DNA of 64,000 nucleotides from Echinarachnius parma (lineage: Eukaryota; Echinodermata; Echinoidea; Clypeasteroida; Echinarachniidae), in the NCBI GenBank assembly GCA_037951105.1, contig JBAMJV010001832.1:264607-328606 (forward strand). The letters are read 5' to 3'. Position numbers and translations under genes: made by a program. This document shows positions 1,042-62,857 of this stretch, in pieces. The notes below the pieces were generated by a model. It saw nothing but the letters and a program-made list of their open reading frames with translations, made no database searches and was not told where the DNA came from. How positions within the stretch are numbered: position 1 is the first letter of the stretch; each line of letters begins with the position of its first letter.

Positions 1042-4000
1042 CCAAGCCCACTGGTCCCTGTTGGTTCTGCCTGGGCAGTCCTGAGGTGGAGAAACATCTG
1101 GTGGCTAGTGTAGGAGAATCCGTAAGTTATCTTCTTTCTTCACTGGATTTTCAATTTTTTTTATTTTAGACAATTATGTTTAATGTATGAAAATGAGCAA
1201 TGAAAACTGGGATATGCCTGTGTCTTCCTGATTGCTAGAATCGGTAATAATTGTTTTTTATGCCTCCGCAACGAAGTAGCCGGAGGCATTATGTTTTCGG
1301 GTTGTCCGTCCGTCCGTACGTCCCGTTCTCGTGATCGCGTTATCTCAAGAACCGATTGACGGATTCTGACCAAACTTGGTACATGTATGTATTTTGGGGA
1401 GCCAATGAACTGATTAGATTTTGGGGTCATGAGGTCAAAGGTCACAGAGCTCATTTTATATGCAAAATAAGCTCGTGATCACGTTATCTCAAGAACGGAT
1501 TGACGGATTCTGACCAAACTTGGTACATGTATGTATCTTTGGGAGCCAATGAACCGATTGGATTTTGGGGTCCTGAGGTCAAAGGTCACAGACCTCATTA
1601 TATATGCAAAAATAGCTTGTGATAGTATTATCTCAAGAACCGATTGACGGATTCTGCCCAAACTTGGTACATGTATGTATCTTGGGGAGCCGATGAACTG
1701 ATTACATTTTGGGGTCATGATGTCAAAGGTCAAAGGTCACACGGCTCATTATACATGCAAAAATGCTTGTAATTGGAAATCTCAAGAACTGAATGTCAGA
1801 TTTCAATCCAACTTGGTACCTGAATGTATCTTTTAGAGAGCTTTTGTAGTCATTATATTTTGGGGTCATGAGGTCAAAGGTCAAGGTCACAGGACTCATT
1901 TTGTAAAATTATCTCAAGAATCAGTTGACAAATAACCATCAAACTTAGTACCTATAATTTGAATTTTGGAGAGCTAATAAGCTAATAAAATGTTGGGTCA
2001 TGAGGGCAAAGGTCAAGGTCACATATATATAGCTCATAATTGTGATATGGCAAGATCCGATAGACAGATTACCATCAAAATTGAGTTGACAGAATTAATT
2101 CTGTGTATGTTAATTTGGGCTTGATATATATAAATCGCGCAATGACGGAGACATCATTTTCGACTGCGCGCAGTCGAAGATCCATCTAGTTTATTTGAGT
2201 AACTTTTTGTGGAAGAAAGTCAGTTGGATGAAGGATTTGTATATCGGTTTAAAGGGATCTAGTAACTTTGTTGATTATGTGCAAAAAGTGATAAGTGGTT
2301 GATACAATGTATTTTGTTGTTATCTGATACCATGTCCATTGGGTGTTGTGTGAAAATTTCAAGTTAAATGGACGTTATATGGCCGAGTAATGAGCAAAAA
2401 TGCAAAGTGATATTCACTAACTCATTGCACTCACTTTGTACACGGTTCTGACGATCCAGTAGTTAATTTAACAACTGAACACTTCAATCGTAAATATCTT
2501 TTTAACGAAAGGGAAATTTGAAAAACCGAAACCTGTCCAATGCTTTTTTATTGTTAATACGAATACAACAAGGTATGAGGGAACTGCTAGAATTCCAATT
2601 GGATTTTGAGGATTTGGACAATGTTACTAAGTCCCTTTAATTGTCTATGTTTGCGAAATAATATGTGAAACTTTATGAGTGAAAGGAAATAAAGGAGTGT
2701 AATTTTTTTTTTTTTTCAGGATCAAAACATGTGACACTTTCATTCAAAGTCATAGATATTTCCATAACTTGATAATGTTCACCTTTAGTTATGTCCAGAC
2801 AAAATTATTTTCAATCTCTAGCTCATACACTTGTTATGTGTTAGTGGTTGTACACCTACTCATTTGTTTATGCAAACCTTCTGCTAAGTTACATCCAGTC
2901 AAAAGATCTCTCAATACTCCAGGGAAAGTTTTGTTTGAGTGGTATACTTTCCATCAAATTGTCTATATTTAATGCCTGTTTGATCCTTGACTACAGATGA
3001 ACACTGTTATGAATTTGTGCCATTAATTTTATTTCACTTTTAACCGTCTATTTACTTTCAGTGTTACCTAGCTCTTGCCAAAGGAGGTCTCATCCCAGAC
3101 CATGTCCTAGTCCTTCCTATTGGTCACTATCAGTCATCACTGGACCTAACTGAGGTATGCGAGAGGGATATACTATTCTTTCCTTTCTAGATAGGACACT
3201 ATGTGAAAAATGGAGAAAAAAAAAGAAAAAAGGAGAAAGTACATGGAGGGGTAATTAAATGCTTTCTTTCAGCACAATAAATTAGAAATAGGAGGTGATG
3301 ACTTTATTTTAAGATTAAAATTCATCAAATTGGTTCATGATAACTAAAGTGTTAATTGTAAGCCTCTAGAACGAGTATGAGATTTTTAGTAGGATTTCAA
3401 TTATATAGATTATTGAAAACCTTGTTTTGCTTATGATAAGATACAGCTCATTGTTTATTAATTCTAAATTCTGCTCACCAAAGTAAAATTTAGGGTCTGA
3501 ATTCAGTGTCATTATTTGTTAACTCGTTCTCTTTCATTCCAATGTGTATCTTGTTCACTTGTAGGAAGTGCAAACAGAGTTGGAGCAGTACAAGACGGCT
3601 CTGCGGAAGTTCTTTCACTCCAAGGGCAAATCCTGCGTCATCTACGAAAGGAACTTTAGAACGCAGCATCTGCAGCTTCAGGTACAAAATAATGTAAATC
3701 TTATATTTACAAACTGCTTTACATCCCTGTCTTACTGGAGACATAAATGTACTTAATAGTGACTAGCGTTAAACCTTGTGATGGTCATGTTGGTAAATTT
3801 TAGGCACATCTTCAAAAGATTCTATTATGATTTTTTTTCTCAAAATAAATGTGTGCCAATTATAAGTTATCTATTTTGGTCATTGATTTTATCTGCTTTC
3901 CTATCCATTAAATCGGACAGATGTTTTCTATTCAAATTAATATGAGAATTAATTGTTATCTCCTATCTTATCTACCAGGTGATACCAGTTGAGAAGTCCA

Positions 4001-6380
4001 AAGTGGAGGACATTAAGGAGGTTTTCTTCAGGTTAGCTGAGCAGCACAAACTGGAGCTGGCTGAGATACCCAAACACACAGACCTCAGACAGGTAATGAT
4101 ACCCAAACACACAGACCTCAGACAGATAATGATACCCAAACACACAGACCTCAGACAGGTAATGATACCCAAACACACAGACCTCAGACAGGTAGTGATA
4201 CCCAAACACACAGACCTCAGACAGGTAATGATACCCAAACACACAGACCTCAGACAGGTAGTGATACCCAAACACACAGACCTCAGACAGGTAATGATAC
4301 CCAAACACACAGACCTCAGACAGGTAATGATACCCAAACACACAGACCTCAGACAGGTAGTGATACCCAAACACACAGACCTCAGACAGGTAGTGATACC
4401 CAAACACACAGACCTCAGACAGGTAATGATACCCAAACACACAGACCTCAGACAGGTAATGATACCCAAACACACAGACCTCAGACAGGTAGTGATACCC
4501 AAACACACAGACCTCAGACAGGTAGTGATACCCAAACACACAGACCTCAGACAGGTAATGATACCCAAACACACAGACCTCAGACAGGTAATGATACCCA
4601 AACACACAGACCTCAGACAGGTAATCATACCCAAACACACAGACCTCAGACAGGTAATGATACCCAAACACACAGACCTCAGACAGGTAATGATACCCAA
4701 ACACGCAGACCTCAGACAGGTAGTGATACCCAAACACGCAGACCTCAGACAGGTAATGATACCCAAACACACAGACCTCAGACAGGTAATGATACCCAAA
4801 CACACAGACCTCAGACAGGTAGTGATACCCAAACACACAGACCTCAGACAGGTAATGATACCCAAACACACAGACCTCAGACAGGTAATGATACCCAAAC
4901 ACACAGACCTCAGACAGGTAATGATACCCAAACACACAGACCTCAGACAGGTACTGATACCCAAACACACAGACCTCAGACAGGTAATGATAATTCATTT
5001 AATACCTCAAGCAGGCTGAGATACCCAAACACAAAGACCTCAGACAGGTAATGATAATTCATTTAATACCTCAAGCAGGGCTCTATGAAACAAATATTTG
5101 TTGCTTGCCCAACAGCAAAATCAACTTGCCCTAAGTGTTCAGGTATTATATGCCATTGAGCTTGTTAATATTTTTGTGTACTTATAAATCACAATTTCAC
5201 ACTTGAAATATGTTACCTAGCAAAAAATTTAAATAATAAGTCATAATTTTAATTCCAAATCTGAACAAAATGCATTATTTTCAACGAGGCAACAAAGTTA
5301 ATCCCCTGCCCAATAGGACAAGTGAATTGATTTAGTCTTGCCCTTCTATGACTTTAACTTGCCTTGGGCAAGCAGTCAATCTGCCATTTAACTTTGGCCT
5401 CACTGTTAAGTTGGCACAGGGTGGAAACTTAATTGGTGTATTTTATGGCATGCCGCAAATTTGAAATATTGAACATGTGCTTATATGAGTAGTCACCATT
5501 AGTATTATTATTATTAAAAACTCTAAAGCAAAAGAACAAAAGTAATATAACAGCAAAACACACAATTTATACAAATTGCGAGTATGCGACAGCTATAAAC
5601 AGTGCAAAGCAGACTTCTAATGATATTCATATTTCTATTTCAGATCCTTTCTGTTGGGTCCCCCTACTTCTTTGCAGAGTTTGGTGATGGTGAGAAGCTC
5701 CTTCACAAAATCAAGAGGTTCTTCCCTCTTCAGTTTGGAAGGTACAGAGGCATTCATTTATTTATCTTTCTGGTATTTCATGAATTAATTAATTTCTGCT
5801 TGTTTGGCTACCTATCGGTAAGCAAACATTTAATGTTGTGTGCCATCGTTTTTTTTATTATTTGCATCATTAGAGTATATAGAGAGAGTAATAAATACTC
5901 TGCTTATTATGTATTTTGTATTCCAAAAAAAAAAAAAAAGGATTTACTTTGTGAATGTGTGTGACAAGCAAATCAACATTGGGAATAGACCCATTTAATT
6001 TCTTTGTGGACAATAAAGAAAGTATCCTCTTGCTTGCCGTTGTTTACTGAAGTCACAATACACCTGAATCTACTTTGTTATATTATTCCTAAATGCACTA
6101 TGTTTTGGTATAAAATGCATTCACCATAGACTTTAAACAGAGTATTTTTAGGACCAGTTCTTAACGGGTTAATTTGCTATCCCAATGAAAATTTTATTAT
6201 AAATAAATTAATTAATTCTGTATTACAAATCTTGCTCCCAGGGAGGTGATGGCATCAGAGGAACTACTGAACATGCCTGAGAGAATCGACTGGAAGAACT
6301 GTAGCTCCACTAAGGAAGAGGAAATTAAGATGGCCGCCACATTCAGGGAGGCGTTTGAGCCCTTCGATTTCAACGAGTGA
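1042..6380 (+). CDS. CWF19L1: CWF19-like protein 1, C-terminal part (5' end outside window)
   Basis: Six coding exons: 1042-1121, 3062-3154, 3565-3681, 3979-4092, 5644-5741, 6242-6380; all introns are GT-AG and phases join, giving about 212 residues and a TGA at 6378-6380. The first exon reads [17 protein letters not shown] and the second [17 protein letters not shown], the signature of the HIT-like CwfJ C-terminal domain 1. The last two exons (FPLQFGREVMASE, then [12 protein letters not shown] at the end) match CwfJ C-terminal domain 2. Family knowledge: CWF19/Drn1 proteins work in the nucleus with the spliceosome and with lariat debranching. The N-terminal metallophosphoesterase-like domain must lie upstream of base 1. 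Oddity: exon 3979-4092 runs in frame into a 28-unit repeat of its own 3' end and splice donor, so the exon could be up to about 0.9 kb longer. The gene converges with CPT2. Confidence 0.95.
1255..2189 (+). mobile_element. Helentron/HINE-like non-autonomous element, family 1, copy 1
   Basis: Starts TTTTTATGCCTCCG with a small palindrome (GCCTCCG...CGGAGGC), then a GTCCGTCCGTC run, then degenerate tandem units of about 155 bp (ATCTCAAGAACCGATTGACG, CCAAACTTGGTACATGTATG, TGGGGTCATGAGGTCAAAGG). It ends with the inverted head motif GCGGAGGCAT, a hairpin (TTCGACTGCG/CGCAGTCGAA), GATCCAT and CTAG before a T. Subterminal inverted repeats, a 3' hairpin, a CTRR-type end and no TIR fit Helitron-related HINEs. 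Antisense frames reading [11 protein letters not shown] come from the tandem unit and are not genes. It lies in a CWF19L1 intron. Confidence 0.75.
2249..2640. mobile_element. TTAA-bounded MITE (piggyBac-like), copy 1
   Basis: Begins TTAAAGGGATCTAGTAAC and ends GTTACTAAGTCCCTTTAA, so ends are inverted and both borders are TTAA, the piggyBac target. An inverted second copy lies at 54042-54429. No coding capacity. It sits in a CWF19L1 intron. Confidence 0.8.
4066..5060 (+). repeat. 33-bp minisatellite of an exon end plus its splice donor
   Basis: Twenty-eight head-to-tail 33-bp units fill 4066-4989. Each encodes IPKHTDLRQ followed by two variable residues (VM 17, VV 8, IM, VI and VL once each). 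The nine-codon part is the true 3' end of the CWF19L1 exon and the next six bases (GTAATG or GTAGTG) are its 5' splice site, so 27 of 28 units keep CAG|GT. Unit order shows a higher-order period: VM VM VV VV occurs at units 7-10 and again at 11-14. A 29th unit (IPKHKDLRQ, 5021-5047) follows a duplicated 3' flank. Because 33 is a multiple of three, this frame and two antisense frames are open throughout; the antisense frames are not genes. Confidence 0.97.
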
Positions 6381-6399
6381 CCTACGCTTGTGGGCAGAC

Positions 6400-6790
6400 C
6401 GGTGTCAAGTTAAAACTGATACTGGCGCCTAGCTTCAGGGAGGCATTTTAGCTCTTCGACAATCACTGCAAGCTGGTATTGCCAGGGAGGCATTTGAGCC
6501 CTTTGAAGTCAACGAGTGAGCTACAGGCAAACTGGTGTCACTTCAAATCTGGTACTCTCGCACAAATTGTACCCTTGTACAAGTACTTCTAGGAAAACTG
6601 GTTACAAGGACATTTAATTCTAGAGTTTCTTGTACCTTGAGAGTGAGCTACATTCATGGGCAGACCAGTGTCACTGCAAAACTGGTACCTATGCAAAATG
6701 GTCCCATTGTACAAGAATTTGTAGGAAAATTGGTATCAAAGACAGTTTATTCTAGATTTCCTGGTACTCATACACTTCGATGACAGTGTT
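6400..6790 (+). repeat. Decayed copies of the last CWF19L1 exon in its 3' flank
   Basis: Downstream of the stop codon the end of the final exon recurs. At 6481-6550 the sequence again reads agggaggcatttgagccctt, then a close match to FDFNE-stop and the following 3' flank. A weaker piece lies at 6425-6450, and the 3' flank motif (gagctacattcatgggcaga) returns near 6645-6690. Copies are degenerate and shifted, so they are presumably untranslated 3' UTR or spacer. Confidence 0.75.
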
Positions 6791-7304: not shown

Positions 7305-8052
7305 TTTTTATGCCTCCGTAACGAAGTTGGCGGAGGCATTATGTTTGCGGGTTGTCCGTCCGTCCGTACGTACGTCCATCCGTCTGTCCGTATCTCAAGA
7401 ACCGATTGACGGATTCTGACCAAACTTGGTACATGTATGTATCTTGGGGAGCCAATGATCTGATTAGATTTTGGGGTCATGAGGTCAAAGGTCAAAGAGC
7501 TCATTTTATATGCAAAAATAGCTCTTGATCGCATTATCTCAAGGACCGATTGATGGATTCTGACCAAACTTGGTATATGTATGTATCTTGGAGAGCCGAT
7601 GATCTGATTAGGTTTTGGGGTCATGAGGTCAAATGTCACAGATCTCATTATATATATGCAAAAATAGCTCGTGATCGTATTATCTCAAGGACCGTTTGAC
7701 GGATTCTGACCAAACTTAGTACATGTATGTATCTTGGAGAGCCAATGATCTGAGTAGATGTTGGGGTCATGAGGTCAAAGGTCAAGGTCACAGGACTCAT
7801 GTAAAAAAAATCTCAAGAACCAGTTGACAAATAACCATCAAAACTTGGTACATATAATTTGAATTTTGGGGAGCTAATAAACTAATGAAATGTTGGGGTC
7901 ATGAGGGCAAAGGTCGTGGTCACTTATCTGATTACCATCAAAATTGAGTTGACAGAATTGACTCAGTGTATGTTAATTTGGGCTTGATATATGTAAATTG
8001 CGTAATGGCGGAGGCATCATTTTCGACTGCGCGCAGTCGAGGATCCATCTAG
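7305..8052 (+). mobile_element. Helentron/HINE-like element, family 1, copy 2
   Basis: Same layout as the copy at 1255: TTTTTATGCCTCCG head, GTCCGTCC run, about four degenerate tandem units, GCGGAGGCAT, hairpin CGACTGCGCGCAGTCG and terminal GATCCATCTAG followed by T. Flanks differ from the other copies, which sets the borders. It lies 0.9 kb beyond the CWF19L1 stop. Confidence 0.75.
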
Positions 8053-33606: not shown

Positions 33607-34004
33607 AAATCTCCGGTAAATTATTATTATTTTTTTTTAGACACCCTGTAGTCCTGTCTAGGGGGCATGACAAGGTCTTGCTGTCAAATGTAGCATTAAG
33701 CAGCTCATACATTTTTCTTACATACAAAATATTGGTTAGTTAAAAAATTGCAAGTTTATTGAGCAAGTAACACTGCTGCTAATGAATATTCATACATTCG
33801 TTAGTAATTTTAGTTAATTGCATATTTAATGAGCATCATGAATATTCATATATTACTATTCAATTTTACTACTCAATAAATGTGCAATTTTGGTACTAAC
33901 CACTATTTTTCATGTGAGAAAATATATATGTTGATGAATGCTAGACCAGTGGTATAAGCATTCCAACAGCACTACAGGGTGTCTAAAAAAAATACCCGGA
34001 GATT
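33607..34004. repeat. Pair of inverted MITE ends (ACAGGGTGTCTAAAAAA)
   Basis: 33607-33652 reads AATCTCCGGTAAATTATTA to TTTTTAGACACCCTGTAGT. 33968-34004 is its mirror, ACTACAGGGTGTCTAAAAAA to CCGGAGATT. The CAGGGTGTC motif is typical of mariner-type ends and faces outward, so this may be two separate elements whose facing ends flank 320 bp, or one element with internal symmetry. Confidence 0.6.
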
Positions 34005-35793
34005 TTTATCATTACCAGCAAGCAGGGAGGATTATTGGAAGATAAAAAAAAATTTAAAAAATAATAATTTGTTGTTGTTTTGATTGGAGAAAAAAAAGAG
34101 GAAATCCGCGGAAACGCAGAAAATGTTCATGCCTGAATACAGTAGTCTCCGCAAGATATATTTTACCCCTTTCACTTGTACTCCATTATTAAGCAGACTC
34201 GAGCAAAGACCACTGTATCCGAGCACTTTATGATGATATTATACTATACTAGTGCACAAAATATTGAGATTAATTGAAATAGAATACTATGTAGACGAGG
34301 TTAATTTTGAAGTATTCTGAAATAAAGTGATGAGCTATACTTGTAATTTGGCGAGTAATTTTGTCCTAGTTTTATTTACATGAATGAAATTCTTCAAAGC
34401 TAAACAGTCGAGGTACCGCTTAAACTAAATTCTCTCGGTGCTCTCTTCTATTGTACACAATGGAAAATATGATTATGATTATTTGTGTGTGTAAAGACAA
34501 TCAATAATCTAATACTTGCATTCATATTTCCTGACCCATGAAAGGGATTATGAGCATATTACATACTATCTATAATTTCATAACTACATGAGACCACATC
34601 ACAATGCCTTTGGTGTTCACATTACAGTGGAACTTCTTTATAACGAGCTCTTCTATTACGCAATACCTAATACAGCGAGGTTATTTCACAGGTCCAGGTT
34701 CTATTGTTGTTCTTCCATGTATCCTTTATTAAGTTACACTTAACAAGTTATGGTACGCCAAGCCTTGGAATATACACTTTGAAAGCAAAATGCAAACGTT
34801 TCAGACTTCTAAGAAATTTACAAGAACATGAAATCTCCTCGATAACAGAAAACACTGATGATATTGAACCAAATTTTATGTTGCGATTTATTACTAGTGT
34901 ATTAATTTTACATACAAACAGCTTTCCATAATTTTTAGTCTAACTTTTAAGTTCAACTTGAAATCTTTGTGAAACACCCCTGTGGGATGTTTGGGGTGAT
35001 GAGCTATACTGTAGATGTTAAACTGACATAATGTAGAGTTGCTACCAACAGATTGAATGTCAACAACTGGATGTAAATAAATCAGATGCATGAAACAAAT
35101 GTATAATAAAAAACAGTGTTTATTTTACTCTGTTCTCCATTTTAATAGGAAAACGTAATGACTATTACAAACATGAGAAATTACATGAATAAGCGTCCTT
35201 CAACACTGATAGACATTTAGAGGAAACAAAAGGAAAAGGAAATTCACAAAGTTCCAAACAGCTGACAAACAAAAATTACTTTCACATGGATTTCAAACTT
35301 GATACAGAATATAAGATTAACCCCTCCAAAAATAGTGAATACTCCCTTTATGTTACACATACTGTACTGGTAAGATAAATTAATCTGAAGGCTTAAAAAG
35401 TCTAAGACATGAACTTTACTTTAAAATCAAGTCATTTGATAAGGTTTTATAATTAGATACAAAATACAGGTTCAAAGTCACATCACAAATGCTGCAAACA
35501 AAGAACAGTGTTTTCTCTTGGTGTTGAGTTCAACCAAGTGCTCTTTCCAAATGAATAATTATGTTATTAACATTATTTAAAAAGAAGGGATGATTCTTAA
35601 AAATAGTTTATTATGCATGCTTGCTATCATCATATTGTTTGACAAAATGGGACTTGGAGAACATCAATGTTTGAAATACGAGTCGGATAGTTATGTGTCA
35701 GTGATATTGTTCTTGTTATTTTGAAATAATTAAATGAAACACCCCCACAAAAAAAAGGCCCTTTACAAAACTTGTTCCAGGACACTTTCAGCT

Positions 35794-36449: not shown

Positions 36450-37066
36450 ACTTTCAGCTGCCCTTTCCCCCTGCAATTTCTAAATTACATAATACAATGT
36501 AAATTGGATCTAGTTCACTGATAAAAAGGAGAATGTATTACTTTGTTTGAAGAATTAATTTAATAATTTCTTGGGGTGAGAAAAAGAAGGGCACTAATTC
36601 TGAGATAATCAAGTTCAAAGTTGGTGAGCCTTGTAGAAACCCAATTCAGCTCTCATTTATTTTTAAATAGCTATTTCCAAAATTAGAAAAACAATATTAT
36701 ATGAATAGTTGACATCACAAAGAAAAGGCTCCGAACTACAAGATAGTATGAAAAACTTGATTTAGGCCAAAATAAAGTTAACGCCCTTCTCATCTCACCT
36801 GATGATTTGATGTGGGTTTATTTTTACAGTTACTGACGATGTCCTTTCTCCATGGAATGTCACGTCTGTGCTCAGCTGCCACAGTTCTCTTTCATAAGGG
36901 TCCATTTCTAAACTGCTACATCTTAACTCCGAACTTCCAAAGTCCTTTCAATCTTTCATAGCATGGCTCCACTAAGGCTCTCCATGCCACATGACATACA
37001 ATATGTACAGAGTTCAGTTCATACATGATTCACAAGGTGAAGTACTGATGTGTGTGGGCAGTGAAT

Positions 37067-42206
<5,140 letters not shown>

Positions 42207-48943: not shown

Positions 48944-49346
48944 AAATGACAATTGTACAAACAAAAACATCATATATATACACATAGAGGTACACATGTA
49001 AACAACTAAGAAAGGGGGCGGAGACATGGAACAATGAAAAGGCTGTGAGTGGCCAATTGGGCTGGGCTGGGATTGGAGGAAATACACACAAAGAGATGTT
49101 ATGTAACAAGGAGCATGATAGGAGGCATGATCAAAGGAGTACCATGAAGGATGGTAATTAGGGACATGAATAGTGAATGGAGGTGAGATGTGAATGGAGG
49201 TAAGACGAAAGGGCTTATAGTAAGTAAAAGATTGAAGAGGGAGGTGTGAGGGGAGGGGGGGGGGGGGGGGGTGAACAAAGGGGAGCTTGAGTGGAGGAGG
49301 TGGGATTAATGAAGAATGGTGGTGGGATGAAAAGGAGCATCTATGA

Positions 49347-51821
49347 AAAGGAGCATCTATACAGTTGATCAACATCCTCGCTGAACAATGTGCCTCTTCC
49401 CTTGATTCCTTCGCAGCTGACATCAACCGATTGGAAGATGATCTACGTTCGTGTTGCAGCGATGCCCAGTGGATCAAATACAATGACGAAATTGATTCTT
49501 GTTTGTCTAAGCACAGGTCTGATCTCCTCCAGCGTAGAAACCGGAAAATTGGCAATCTCACCAGAAAACGCCAAGGGACACGTAGATTCACCCGATGTAC
49601 TAATAACACTGCTGTTTCACCCCAAACAGTTGTCAATCTCTCATCTGCCCCCCTCTCCACATCAGAATCCTCCCTTCTCTCCAAAGGTCTCAACTTCTGC
49701 CCCACCCCACCAGCTGTCAATCAGATCTCACTCAACCAGGATTTGTCTTCCTTCTATCGCTTCATCCGCCTCAAGGAATACTTCCTCGATGAACCCCCAT
49801 CTCAACCTGAACCCTTCCGACAGAAAAGCAGCTGGGTACCCCCCAAGAACAGAGTTCCATCCCTCGAAACGTATGTGCAGGCAGTTAGTTCACAAGTTCT
49901 CTCCTCAGATATCCCCAGCAACACGCACGACAACCTCCCTCATGAAGAACGCCAAGCTCTCACTTCCCTCAAAAACAGGACCGACATCATCATCAAGCCA
50001 GCAGACAAAGGATCGGCCGTCGTCGTCATGGACCGCCAACAATACATCGACGAGGCCATGAAACACCTCAACAATCGTTCACACTATTCTGTGCACAACT
50101 CTGACCCCACATCTGAATTCTCTCAGCAGATACAGCAGACACTGGATGACATGAAGGCTCGTGAACACCTCTCCAAAAAAGCTCACAAATTTCTCTCCCC
50201 CGTCAATACTAAACCTGCCAGATTCCACCTTCTCCCCAAGATACACAAACCAGGGAATCCAGGTCGTCCTATCCTATCGGGAAATGGTTCACCCACAGAG
50301 AACATTTCTCTCTTTGTCGATCATCACATTAAACCTCTTGTCCATCTAGCACCTTCCTACATCCATGACACCCCTGACTTTCTTAGGAAACTTGAAGCCA
50401 TCAAGGATCAAATACCAGAGACTGCCATCATTGGCACTTTTGATGTTTCTTCCCTGTACACCAACATCCCTTTCGACGAAGGAGTCGCTGCATCATGTGA
50501 AGCTTTGACCAGGAGCGGTCACTCCAACCCACCCATTTCTGACATCAAATCTCTCATGTCCCATGTACTAACCAAAAACAACTTCACTTTCTTGGATCAA
50601 CACTATCTACAGGTTTTTGGCACGGCAATGGGTACCCGTATGGCTCCCTCATTTGCCTGTCTCTTCATGACCAAGCTCGAACAGCAAATGTTGGATTCGG
50701 CTCCTTGCCGCCCATGGATCTGGTGGCGTTACATTGACGACGTCTTCTTCATCTGGACCAGCGATGATGACAGCCTCCACACATTCATTGACCACATGAA
50801 TTCCTTTCACAGGACCATCAAGTTCACTTCCGATTTCTCCCCAGATGAGACGCACTTCCTCGATGTCACCGTCAAGAAGGCAAACGGCCATATCACCACA
50901 GATCTCTACACCAAACCGACAGACACCCACCAATACCTTCATTCCACTAGTTGCCATCCCCGTCACTGCAAGACTGGCATCGCTTACAGCCAAGCTCTCC
51001 GACTCCGCCGCATCTGCTCCAAAGATTCCGACTTTTCCCTTCACGCTAGAAATCTCAAGGAACATCTCACATCTAGGGGTCACAGTGCTAGAACAGTTAC
51101 ACAAGCCATTAACAAAGTTCGTTCTCTCCTCAGATCTGATGTCCTCAAACAGAAGACTCACAACCAGACCACCACCAACGTGTTACCCCTTGTGACCACC
51201 TTCCATCCCAACTTACCTCCCCTCCGTACCATCCTCCACGATAATCACCACATCCTCCACACCTCCGACCGGCTCCAACATGCTGTCCCTGACCAGCCAA
51301 TTCTAGCCTACCGACGCCCCCGAATCCTCAAGGATCTCATCGTTCGTGCTGAAGTCCCTTCTCTCACTAATGATTCTTCTCCCACACAGCATGGTACCTT
51401 CAAGTGCACAGCTGACAGATGCGTCATATGCAAGGTTCATCTCTCCCAGGGCGATTCTTTCACCAGCCACTCTAACAACCTCTCTTTTCACACCAAAGGT
51501 AACATCACATTCACCACCACCAACGTTGTTTACCTGATCACCTGCCGAGTCTGCCGCATCCAGTATGTAGGTGAAACCAAGACCACTCTCAAGAGACGCT
51601 TCTATGGACACAGATCCACCGTCCACACATCCAAGCTCGACACCCCAGTTGGCCATCATTTCAACCTACCTAACCATTCCATTTCTGACATGATTCTACA
51701 GGGCATAGAATCTCTAGGCAACCGTCCAGATTCACTACGCACCAGCAGGGAAAAACACTGGATGAGATGTCTCTGCACAATCCAACCCCGTGGGCTCAAC
51801 ATTCAAGAAGGCAGTGTTTAG
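49347..51821 (+). CDS. Penelope-like reverse transcriptase with GIY-YIG endonuclease
   Basis: One uninterrupted frame of about 825 codons ending TAG at 51819-51821. There is no in-frame ATG near its start; the first candidate is a TTG at 49365, so the 5' end is probably missing or lies elsewhere. Residues are counted from 49365. RT motifs: GTFDVSSLYTNIPF (about 350-363), AMGTRMAPSFACLFM, and the catalytic YIDDVFFIW with its Tyr at about 456. The C-terminal endonuclease has VYLITC at about 722-727, QYVGET at about 733-738, LKRRFYGH, then HHFNLPNH. Family knowledge: the protein nicks target DNA and copies its RNA there. The frame is intact and codon use is even, so insertion is recent or the frame is still under selection. 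Confidence 0.92.
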   Translation, partial: KGASIQLINILAEQCASSLDSFAADINRLEDDLRSCCSDAQWIKYNDEIDSCLSKHRSDLLQRRNRKIGNLTRKRQGTRRFTRCTNNTAVSPQTVVNLSSAPLSTSESSLLSKGLNFCPTPPAVNQISLNQDLSSFYRFIRLKEYFLDEPPSQPEPFRQKSSWVPPKNRVPSLETYVQAVSSQVLSSDIPSNTHDNLPHEERQALTSLKNRTDIIIKPADKGSAVVVMDRQQYIDEAMKHLNNRSHYSVHNSDPTSEFSQQIQQTLDDMKAREHLSKKAHKFLSPVNTKPARFHLLPKIHKPGNPGRPILSGNGSPTENISLFVDHHIKPLVHLAPSYIHDTPDFLRKLEAIKDQIPETAIIGTFDVSSLYTNIPFDEGVAASCEALTRSGHSNPPISDIKSLMSHVLTKNNFTFLDQHYLQVFGTAMGTRMAPSFACLFMTKLEQQMLDSAPCRPWIWWRYIDDVFFIWTSDDDSLHTFIDHMNSFHRTIKFTSDFSPDETHFLDVTVKKANGHITTDLYTKPTDTHQYLHSTSCHPRHCKTGIAYSQALRLRRICSKDSDFSLHARNLKEHLTSRGHSARTVTQAINKVRSLLRSDVLKQKTHNQTTTNVLPLVTTFHPNLPPLRTILHDNHHILHTSDRLQHAVPDQPILAYRRPRILKDLIVRAEVPSLTNDSSPTQHGTFKCTADRCVICKVHLSQGDSFTSHSNNLSFHTKGNITFTTTNVVYLITCRVCRIQYVGETKTTLKRRFYGHRSTVHTSKLDTPVGHHFNLPNHSISDMILQGIESLGNRPDSLRTSREKHWMRCLCTIQPRGLNIQEGSV

Positions 51822-58159: not shown

Positions 58160-58940
58160 CATATCGTCATCGTGTCATAATACCGAGCAAAATGGAACAC
58201 TATTTATGACGTTCTTCATCAGCTGGAAGACTGTCCGTTGTACTTGAACAGGGCTCTCCCTTTAGTTTTTCTTTCAGCTGGCCAAAATTACACATCAGAT
58301 CTGCTCCCACCATACCCTGTGTGTTGTAGATCCTAATATGTTAGTGGCCAATACAGAGTTTCTAGCCAGTTTCTAGTCGCCAAAATAAATCTTTGGTGGT
58401 TATTGGCACCCGGGCCATTGCTAACGGAGAGCTCTTTTAAATATTGATGTTATAACTTATAACACAGAAGAATCAGGAATACTATTTCTTCACAAACTGA
58501 AAGACTGTCCGTCAAACTTGATTATTGACTCTGGAATGCTCTCCATCATTTAATCTTGATTTAAATTTTAAAGACAATCTTCATAAACTGGAAACTTGTT
58601 TGTTAACCCATTGCCTAGTGAAACCTGGTGGCTTTGGAATGGATATTGAGTTTGAAATGCTTTCCATTATTTCATCTTGATTCAAATTTTAAAGAGCATT
58701 CTGCATTTACTGAAAACCTGTTTGTTAACTGAGGAACCAGAAACACTATTTTTTCACAAACTGCAAGACTGTTGAACTTGAATATTGACTTTGAAATGCT
58801 CTCCATCATTTAATCTCAAGTTATTACACTTTTGAAAACATTCTGCATAAACGGGAAACCTGATTGTTAACAAATTGCCTACAGGAGCATGGTGGGTCTT
58901 TTATTGACTGTGTGGGAATTTTCGATATATTGTAGGGTAC
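58160..58940 (+). repeat. LSM8 3' flank with degenerate tandem units
   Basis: Words recur at irregular intervals: actgaaagactgtccgtcaa (58497), tgctctccatcatttaatct (58539 and 58798), ttaaattttaaagacaatct (58561), aaactggaaacttgtttgtt (58587, variants at 58707 and 58852). This looks like a duplication of about 150-260 bp that decayed. Poly(A) site not defined. Confidence 0.65.
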
Positions 58941-59040
58941 AGGTAAAATTTTGATTTGGAAAATATTTGAACATGGAATCAATATTCTGATATCTCAGGA
59001 TAACGTTATTGGAAGATTTAGACCATCATGTTCCAATATA

Positions 59041-59545
59041 CAGGGTGGCCCCAAAAAACGGAACGGGGCACTTCCCAAAATAAAGTACCAAACTATTCAT
59101 GTCCATCAGGTAAGGGGTCTTTTCCAATGAAAAACGATACCAAGAACAGTAATTTTGGTTGTGTAGTTTTTGTTTTAGGACGCTGTGAGTGGGACCATGT
59201 CAGGTGCAAATTTGTGTCAATTTTTACCTAGTCAGGGCCAGTAAAACCGCACTCACTGCCCGTAATACCATGCCCATTATCTCGGCACCCGGCTGAGTGC
59301 ACACTGTCAATGGTGCGCTGTGTTGTACGCTATGAAAGGCGGTGCGTGCGGTTTTACTGGCCCTGACTAGGTAAAAATTGACAAAAAACGGAACCTGACA
59401 TGATGTCACTCACAGCACCCTAGAACAAAAACAACTGTTCTTGATATCGTTTTTCATTGGAAAAGACACCCTATCCGATGGACATAATAATTGTGTTACT
59501 GTATTTTGGGAAGTGCCCCGTTCCGTTTTTCGGGGGGCCACCCTG
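59041..59545. mobile_element. TA-flanked foldback element (CAGGGTGGCCCC ends)
   Basis: Ends CAGGGTGGCCCCAAAAAACG and GGGGGGCCACCCTG with TA on both sides. Arms of about 200 bp mirror each other (acgataccaagaacagtaat with its counterpart near 59440; cagggccagtaaaaccgcac with its counterpart near 59350) around a loop of about 100 bp. A decayed relative is at 38153. Confidence 0.88.
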
Positions 59546-60108: not shown

Positions 60109-60895
60109 TTTTTATGCCTCCGCAACGAAGTAGCCGGAGGCATTATGTTTTCGGGTTGTCCGTCCGTCCGTCCGTACGTCCGTACGTCCCGTTCTCGTGA
60201 TCGCGTTATCTCAAGAACCGATTGACGGATTTTCACCAAACTTGGGTCATGTATGTATCTTGGGGGGCCGATGATCTGATTAGATTTTGGGGTCATGAGG
60301 TCAAAGGTCACAGAGCTCATTATATATGCAAAAATAGCTTGGATCGCATTATCTCAAGAACGGATTGACGGATTCTGACCAAACTTGGTACATGTATGTA
60401 TCTTGGGGGGCCAATGATCTGATTAGATTTTGGGGTCATGAGGTCAAAGGTCAAAGGTCACAGAGCTCATTATATATGCAAAAATAGCTTGTGATCGCGT
60501 TATCTCAAGAAGGGATTGACAGATTCTGACCAAACTTGGTACATGTATGTTCCTTGGAGAGCCAATGAACTGATTAGATTTTGGGGGTCATGAGGTCAAA
60601 GGTCACAGGGCTCATTATATGTAAAAGAACTGAATATCAGATTTCAATCCAAATTGATACCTGAATGTATCTTAGGGAACAATTGTAGTCATTAGATTTT
60701 GGGGTCATGAGGGCAAAGGTCAAGGTCACTGATAGCTCATAATTGTGATACGTCAAGATCTAAAAGACAGAGTACCATCAAAATTGAGTTGACAGAATTA
60801 ATTCAGTGTACAGAATTGATTTGGGCTTGATATAAATAAATTGCGTAATGGCGGAGGCATCATTTTCGACTGCGCGCAGTCGAAGATCCATCTAG
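60109..60895 (+). mobile_element. Helentron/HINE-like element, family 1, copy 3
   Basis: Third copy of the family with the same head, GTCCGTCCGTCCGTCC run, three to four tandem units, GCGGAGGCAT subterminal inverted repeat, 3' hairpin and GATCCATCTAG|T end. It lies downstream of LSM8. Confidence 0.75.
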
Positions 60896-61519: not shown

Positions 61520-62857
61520 TTTTTAGCTCATCCGGCCCGAAGGGCCCGATGAGCTTATGCCATGCCGTGGCGTCCGTCGTCCGTCCTTCCGTCCTTCCGT
61601 CCTTCCGTCCGTCCGTCCGTCCACAGTTTTCAAAATGCTTCTTCTTCGTTATTTTTCAACCGATTTTGATTCTGATTGTTTCATATGATAGGGCTAGGAG
61701 GGGGATTTAAAACTTCTACACAGAATCGTGAAATTCATTATATATGCTAATATATGCAAATTTATTCGAAATCACAAAAAATGCTTCTTCTCCTTCATTT
61801 CTTGACCGATTTTGATTTGGTTTGCTTTATCTGGTAGAGCTAACTTTGGTACACTAAACTTCTACACAGAATTTGAAATTTTTCTCCATTAATTAATTAT
61901 GGTAATTTATGCAAATTTATTCCAAAAATCACCAAAAATGCTTCTTCTCCTTCATTTCTTGACCGATTTTGATTTGGTTTGCTTTATCTGGTAGAGCTAA
62001 CTTTGGTACACTAAACTTCTACACAGAATTTTGAAATTTTTCTCCATTAATTAATTATGGTAATTTATGCAAATTTATTCCAAAAATCACAAAAAATGCT
62101 TCTTCTCCTTCATTTCTCGACCGATTTTGATTTGGTTTGCTTTATCTGGTAGAGCTAGCTTTGGTACACTAAACTTCTACACAGAATTTTGAAATTTTTC
62201 TCCATTAATTAATTATGGTAATTTATGCAAATTTATTCCAAAAATCACAAAAAATGCTTCTTCTCCTTCATTTCTCGACCGATTTTAATTTGGTTTGCTT
62301 TATCTGGTAGAGCTAACTTTGGTACACTAAACTTCTACACAGAATTTTGAAATTTTTCTCCATGAATTAACTATGGTAATTTATGCAAATTTATTCCAAA
62401 AATCACCAAAAATGCTTCTTCTCCTTCATTTCTTGACCGATTTTGATTTGGTTTGCTTTATCTGGTAGAGCTAACTTTGGTACACTAAACTTCTACACAG
62501 AATTTTGAAATTTTTCTCCATTAATTAATTATGGTAATTTATGCAAATTTATTCCAAAAATCACAAAAAATGCTTCTTCTCCTTCATTTCTCGACCGATT
62601 TTGATTTGGTTTGCTTTATCTGGTAGAGCTAGCTTTGGTACACTAAACTTCTACACAGAATTTTGAAATTTTTCTCCATTAATTAATTATGGTAATTTAT
62701 GCAAATTTATTCCAAAAATCACAAAAAATGCTTCTTCTCCTTCATTTCTCGACCGATTTTGATTTGGTTTGCTTTATCTGGTAGAGCTAACTTTGGTACA
62801 CTAAACTTCTACACAGAATTTTGAAATTTTTCTCCATGAATTAACTATGGTATTTTT

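Follow-up and report, generated by a model that had tools for sequence, protein, structure and literature searches.

Alternative splicing within the VNTR array of the human CBS gene was reportedly described by Lievers et al. in 2001, and competing equal 5′ splice sites have mostly been studied with engineered pairs. In the portions of the literature on which we draw, the CBS VNTR is named c.1444_1467+7(16_21), by which name it comprises 24 exon and 7 intron bases in 16–21 copies (PMC2630376), and it is listed as exon 13–intron 13 (PMC1395315). By that name its copies each hold a 5′ splice site (donor), and according to the same portions its units differ by single bases (PMC2630376, PMC1395315), as do those of the array that we describe here in the CWF19L1 gene of Echinarachnius parma. 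The two differ in that the CBS unit is 31 bp long, which is not a multiple of three, and is polymorphic in people, whereas the CWF19L1 array has 28 copies of 33 bp and stays in frame. A second CBS variant, 844ins68, lies at the exon 8 boundary and not at an exon end with its donor. The part of its description that we use presents it as an intron–exon boundary duplication that splicing can skip, giving normal mRNA (PMC7277093). Unlike the CWF19L1 array, it consists of a single extra copy, of 68 bp. In the ABCA7 VNTR the donor itself is, to our knowledge, not repeated. That repeat is an intronic minisatellite which, in the excerpt cited here, affects the splicing of its host gene (PMC5954066). 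Tandem duplication of segments containing AGGT is also a published route to intron gain, for which the sections of the paper used here give the Rogers model, ATP2A1, 24-bp repeats in fission yeast and the potato RdRp gene (PMC4974935). The CWF19L1 array shares with these cases, as those sections present them, its tandem copies of an AGGT-holding segment (PMC4974935), but the copies there create a new intron, whereas those in CWF19L1 extend the start of an old one and come without a pyrimidine tract. In a literature search for donor-spanning repeats, human CBS was the only direct match among the titles found, and others may be in print. The CWF19L1 array is of a kind already known from the human CBS 31-bp VNTR; to this kind it adds an in-frame, 28-copy member, in a genome where such arrays recur.

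A tandem array across a CWF19L1 exon end

The window that we analysed is a stretch of 64,000 nucleotides, and the array lies within a contig of 328,606 bases in an assembly of 1.2 Gb and 14,790 contigs. COX1 of this genome forms a single frame of 521 residues under translation tables 5, 9 and 24; reading AAA as Asn in NNMSFW favours the echinoderm code, and the protein resembles that of a sea urchin. An earlier, sequence-only reading had assigned the host gene to CWF19L1, and this was confirmed by protein comparison. Joining the exons at 3979–4092, 5644–5741 and 6242–6380 (these and all array features below are on the forward strand) gave 116 residues followed by a stop. This protein aligned without gaps to the CWF19L1 of 8ro2 (8ro2_L1; E = 5.7e-36) and to the CWF19L1 homolog in 8ro1 (E = 3.9e-19), structures that we take to be human and worm, respectively, and it matched the Pfam domain CwfJ_C_2 (PF04676; E = 1.3e-17). 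The first of the three exons is 114 nt long and ends in IPKHTDLRQ, with its donor GT at 4093–4094; the second ends in FG and provides the acceptor common to the array donors; the third is the last exon of the gene and includes the stop codon. A preceding CWF19L1 exon lies at 3565–3681, where a CwfJ_C_1 match covers 3478–3684, and further stretches that we take to be CWF19L1 exons were picked out by eye among the translations. The window contains no Rfam family at gathering score and no tRNA.

From 4066 to 4989, 28 units of exactly 33 bp, counted by position, follow head to tail, as the sequence-only reading had reported. Each unit consists of 27 exon bases (the IPKHTDLRQ codons, 4066–4092 in unit 1) and six intron bases and runs from GATA to GATA; the exon parts end at 4092 + 33k, the last at 4983. 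As in exon–intron boundary VNTRs of the CBS type, the tandem unit is made of an exon end, a 5′ splice site and an intron start. TRF gave a period of 33 with 30.1 copies and 94% matches over 4065–5056, and a tandem array of this kind is far beyond chance. The CAG-GT junction is kept in 27 of the 28 units, the exception being unit 2, which has AT. The intron parts read GTAATG in 17 units, GTAGTG in eight, and ATAATG, GTAATC and GTACTG in one each. Private variants mark units 2, 17, 20–21 and 27, and units 20 and 21 have one exon-part change in common.

The claim that these units form a comb of near-identical donors held up when we predicted pairing with the 5′ end of U1. Each of the 27 GT units kept a usable-looking donor, with a predicted pairing of −7.1 to −8.2 kcal/mol (−8.1 or −8.2 for GTAATG, GTAATC and GTAGTG; −7.1 for GTACTG), compared with −1.6 for the dead ATAATG donor of unit 2 (4126–4131). 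Compared with the 3,387 GTs found elsewhere in the window, the array GT donors rank in the best 0.8 to 1.7%, and three other CWF19L1 donors were predicted at −5.8, −7.1 and −5.6. By the same measure, donor 1 was not set apart from the other donors of the array.

Beyond unit 28 the intron start runs on for 32 bases and is followed, 64 bp after unit 28, by an imperfect 29th copy of the exon end that the sequence-only reading had missed. This copy occupies 5016–5079: the exon end (5016–5047, with a private C>A) is followed by a donor at 5048 and by the intron start, present here for a second time. By eye, it represents a separate 64-bp duplication of the CWF19L1 exon end just downstream of the array, with GG at the join. 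An in-frame TGA at 5017–5019 precedes the donor at 5048 and ends read-through past unit 28. The earlier statement that no stop interrupts the frame is therefore right through unit 28, whose donor (4984–4985) is the last with an open frame, and fails before the 29th donor: the comb ends in a stop. The left edge of a dispersed repeat (5077–5372), placed by eye on two copies, is only a few bases from where the 64-bp duplication ends. When 5080–6400 was used as a query and 40 of 191 candidates were scored, 32 of the 40 other matches fell in the first 293 bases, in this repeat, at 68–84% identity.

A search of the 1.2-Gb assembly with the array gave one match, in a procedure that skips very common words, and copies elsewhere are possible. 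No second copy or allele of the locus was found in the assembly with the array, the 3′ flank or CwfJ_C_1 as query, and the only other hit with CwfJ_C_1 was CWF19L2. The sequence-only reading had also seen a second-level repeat in the order of the units and had taken the array to be still evolving. By eye the unit types do show such a pattern (AAGGAAGG), but permutation tests did not carry it (autocorrelation p = 0.06 at lag 4 and again at lag 10, and p = 0.28 for the best of the 12 lags; p = 0.75 for the longest repeated run). The second-level order is not established, and unit order gives no significant sign that the array is still evolving. One 171-nt stretch of the array folded as RNA no better than its shuffles (z 0.36). 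Among 20 contig starts of 10 kb, we counted 28 arrays with a period of 10–100 and three or more copies, six with eight or more and two with 15 or more; these 200 kb of contig starts may be repeat-rich and are a thin base, on which we claim no excess of donor-spanning arrays.

Other repeats occur in the window. A related 143–146-bp unit is found in three arrays (1328–1883, 7391–7785 and 60197–60609), and a 158-bp unit is present in 7.1 copies at 61743–62856. An open frame of 818 aa at 49365–51821 matches reverse transcriptase and, at a score slightly below the cut-off, GIY-YIG; it is presumably Penelope-like. The 17-bp tandem motifs at 49173 and 52729 look mutually reverse-complementary.

Repeated donors elsewhere in the genome

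Further tandem copies of an exon end with its donor and intron start, like those of the 33-bp array, were found in the same genome. They differ from it in spacing, which ranges from 59 to 255 bp, and in number, with two to four copies in all cases other than contig C11389, which has at least 25. In C11389, the end of an exon that matches DEAD-box helicases is repeated with strong tandem donors of the form TCTGAG-GTAGGT, 25 of them in 33650–35500, in an array that reaches the end of the examined stretch. These donors are spaced in steps of 59 bp, with one step of 210, and TGATATA stands at both unit ends; the second block contains 23 complete units with three deviations. All 25 donors are intact. 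Translation beyond donor 1 yields VGLNMI before a stop, and because this stop lies in the first added unit and the 59-bp unit is not a multiple of three, the C11389 array cannot encode a ladder of isoforms.

CWF19L1 itself has a second case. The end of an exon upstream of the window (8ro1_L1, E = 2.7e-13; 8ro2_L1, E = 1.1e-12) is present in four copies spaced 184–197 bp apart (L003:5588–6452, about −4412 to −3548 relative to the window start). These copies are more diverged than those of the 33-bp array, with donors predicted at −8.2, −4.5, −4.3 and −1.5, the fourth without GT, and a stop directly after donor 1. In CWF19L2, a copy of an exon with its donor occurs 238 bp on (two copies); both donors are at −5.6, and a stop precedes the second. 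A 68-nt piece of an exon is also found three times in CWF19L2; by eye, two of these copies lie upstream of the exon. A stop thus follows donor 1 in all three of the same-genome arrays checked for it (C11389, upstream CWF19L1 and CWF19L2), and the stops before donor 2 in the older duplications indicate that CWF19L1 and CWF19L2 do without the later donors there.

We also surveyed Helicase_C matches. Scoring 150 of 236 candidates gave at least 144 of these, and by eye we grouped those that overlapped within 1.5 kb into clusters on C2030, C8910, C3567, C5116, C2429, C6793, C11389 and C4382, with C2080 doubtful. Repeated donors were present in four of the seven helicase clusters examined (C2030, C8910, C11389 and C4382). 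C2030 has four copies of an exon end with its donor (36500–37900), and C8910 has two in the stretch examined (58600–59400). The two contigs are 96.3% identical over 684 bp, with the first donor at −11.1 and the later ones at −7.1; they are likely one gene or a recent pair, and the difference between four and two copies is possibly allelic. C4382 has two donor copies, both at −7.9. In C3567 and C2429 we recognised no donor copies by eye, and C6793 has a partial exon copy upstream. The upstream exon copies of C6793 and CWF19L2 would fit the mirror image of a donor-spanning duplication. A listing of kinase matches (at least 138, with 125 of 1333 candidates scored) gave four clusters by eye, on C1746, C12035, C333 and C7072. 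In both the Helicase_C and the kinase listings, many pairs of contigs have identical scores, which suggests that the assembly still contains parts of both haplotypes.

Comparison of donor strengths among these cases gave a divided result. The first donor is the strongest in upstream CWF19L1 and in C2030/C8910, as expected if only the first is needed. The donors are equal in C11389, CWF19L2 and C4382, that is, in three of the five recurrence cases, and decay of the later donors is therefore not general.

A probable origin by duplication and the possible cost of extra donors

We consider it likely that the array is a donor-spanning minisatellite, which arose by microhomology-seeded tandem duplication across the exon end and whose extra copies are tolerated in the intron, with the first donor supplying most of the functional mRNA. 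Supporting this explanation, the joins carry short identities: by eye, GATA bounds the 33-bp unit on both its exon side (GAGATACCC) and its intron side (ATGATAATT), and GG stands at the join of the 64-bp duplication. The recurrence of donor-spanning duplications within the genome and the conserved, ungapped protein at the insertion point also argue for it, as do the all-nonsynonymous changes among the units (see below) and the human 844ins68, a boundary duplication past which splicing can still give normal mRNA (PMC7277093). Events may have begun with a 64-bp tandem duplication, in whose upstream copy the GATA microhomology then seeded a 33-bp duplication; replication slippage or unequal exchange may later have raised this to 28 units. 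Duplications of this kind would be nearly neutral, because the exon and its donor remain intact upstream and the additional copies simply become the new start of the intron. A segment duplicated within an exon would alter the protein, so that survivors would be expected across exon ends.

Under this minisatellite explanation, U1 could pair with any of the 27 near-equal donors, and we infer that the first, at 4093, supplies most of the functional mRNA because it gives the 114-nt exon and an ungapped, conserved protein. Later donors would be used as noise, adding 11(n−1) residues, and use of the 29th donor or failed splicing would lead to the premature stop at 5017. Two findings count against the explanation. 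Predicted U1 pairing shows no preference for donor 1, and the changes among the units are clustered in the intron-derived bases (see below), which neutrality alone does not predict. Additionally, in the sections of one study that we cite, choice between two 5′ sites depends on SR proteins and on position (PMC5585400), by which later donors could be favoured. On balance, we regard the array as a probable by-product of repeated duplication rather than a means of making 27 proteins.

The alternatives overlap, and their probabilities need not sum to one. A closely related possibility, which we regard as doubtful, is that the array imposes a load on gene dosage, with more units giving less correct mRNA because some transcripts spliced at late donors or at donor 29 would run into the stop at 5017. 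This overlaps with the minisatellite explanation and differs from it in claiming a measurable effect of unit number. The position of that stop ahead of donor 29 is in its favour, as is the title of Lievers et al. (2001), which links the CBS VNTR with reduced CBS activity. Against it, 27 donors stay in frame, and the assembly searches yielded no second allele of the locus.

Reading frame, isoforms and remaining alternatives

The sequence-only reading had drawn from the intact CAG-GT junctions and the open frame the possibility of up to 27 isoforms, each use of donor n lengthening the protein by 11(n−1) residues. In its full form, the spliceosome would use many of the 27 in-frame donors to give CWF19L1 proteins extended within CwfJ_C_2 by varying multiples of 11 residues, and the 27 near-equal phase-0 donors and the frame open through unit 28 are what such a ladder calls for. 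Later donors would indeed add units of 11 residues, but with donor 2 dead an insert of 11 is not available, and the possible lengths range from 22 to 297 residues. The openness of the frame carries little weight, since the array is open in four of six frames. Moreover, near-identical units cannot be counted as 28 independent open frames and amount to a single event: the donor is in phase 0 and the unit length is a multiple of three, which leaves just one added codon at which a stop was possible.

The C11389 array is the decisive control for the isoform claim. With its frame-breaking 59-bp unit and immediate stop, it has no encodable ladder and still keeps 25 of 25 donors, and the retention of CAG-GT in 27 of 28 units loses its force as evidence; judging from this comparison, donor retention can reflect youth or homogenisation alone. 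The older duplications in CWF19L1 and CWF19L2, with their stops before donor 2, point the same way. The insertion point lies inside CwfJ_C_2, and because there is no gap there in the alignments to the CWF19L1 of 8ro2 and 8ro1, inserts of 22–297 residues appear unlikely as a normal product. Taken with these observations, a ladder of isoforms seems quite improbable. Feedback through CWF19L1 as a splicing factor, which the sequence-only reading had thought conceivable, likewise gained no support.

The changes among the units give a mixed picture. They are of five kinds, all nonsynonymous (0 of 5 synonymous), and in this small sample we see no sign of purifying selection at the protein level. With each kind taken as a single event, four of the five lie within the six bases derived from the intron (binomial P = 0.005, post hoc), as do four of six when the 29th copy is included (P = 0.012, post hoc). 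Chance could account for this clustering, as could exchange with the exon or selection acting on the exon-derived part.

Misassembly, in the form of a wrong unit number or a wrongly built array, is very improbable: the locus is known from a single assembly in which many contig pairs have identical scores, but the units carry private variants, the flanks are continuous, the window contains no N and like arrays occur on other contigs. Least credible of all is that each CAG-GT unit, present in 27 of 28 cases, acts as both acceptor and donor and that units are removed without trace in multiples of 33 nt, in the manner of recursive splicing and of the intron gain by AGGT duplication published, in the part of the source cited, for cases that include the 24-bp fission-yeast repeat (PMC4974935), because the units offer a donor without a credible acceptor and its pyrimidine tract, the 20 bases before the array CAG being 45% pyrimidine (two units measured) against 65–80% at five CWF19L1 acceptors.

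Were the comb really used, which we think improbable, individual animals would produce CWF19L1 proteins in graded lengths, carrying either no extra 11-residue unit in CwfJ_C_2 or 2 to 27 of them, and the number of units would differ between alleles. Given the recurrence, the species would then also have natural genes in each of which 2 to about 28 nearly identical 5′ splice sites compete, and donor choice by position alone could be read from these. The natural set that one genome holds, with 27 near-identical in-frame donors, at least 25 out-of-frame donors and older cases of two to four copies, bears on whether donors are chosen by their position alone. It also suggests a simple way for exon ends to become intron sequence, in which duplication across an exon end is tolerated as the upstream copy stays whole.
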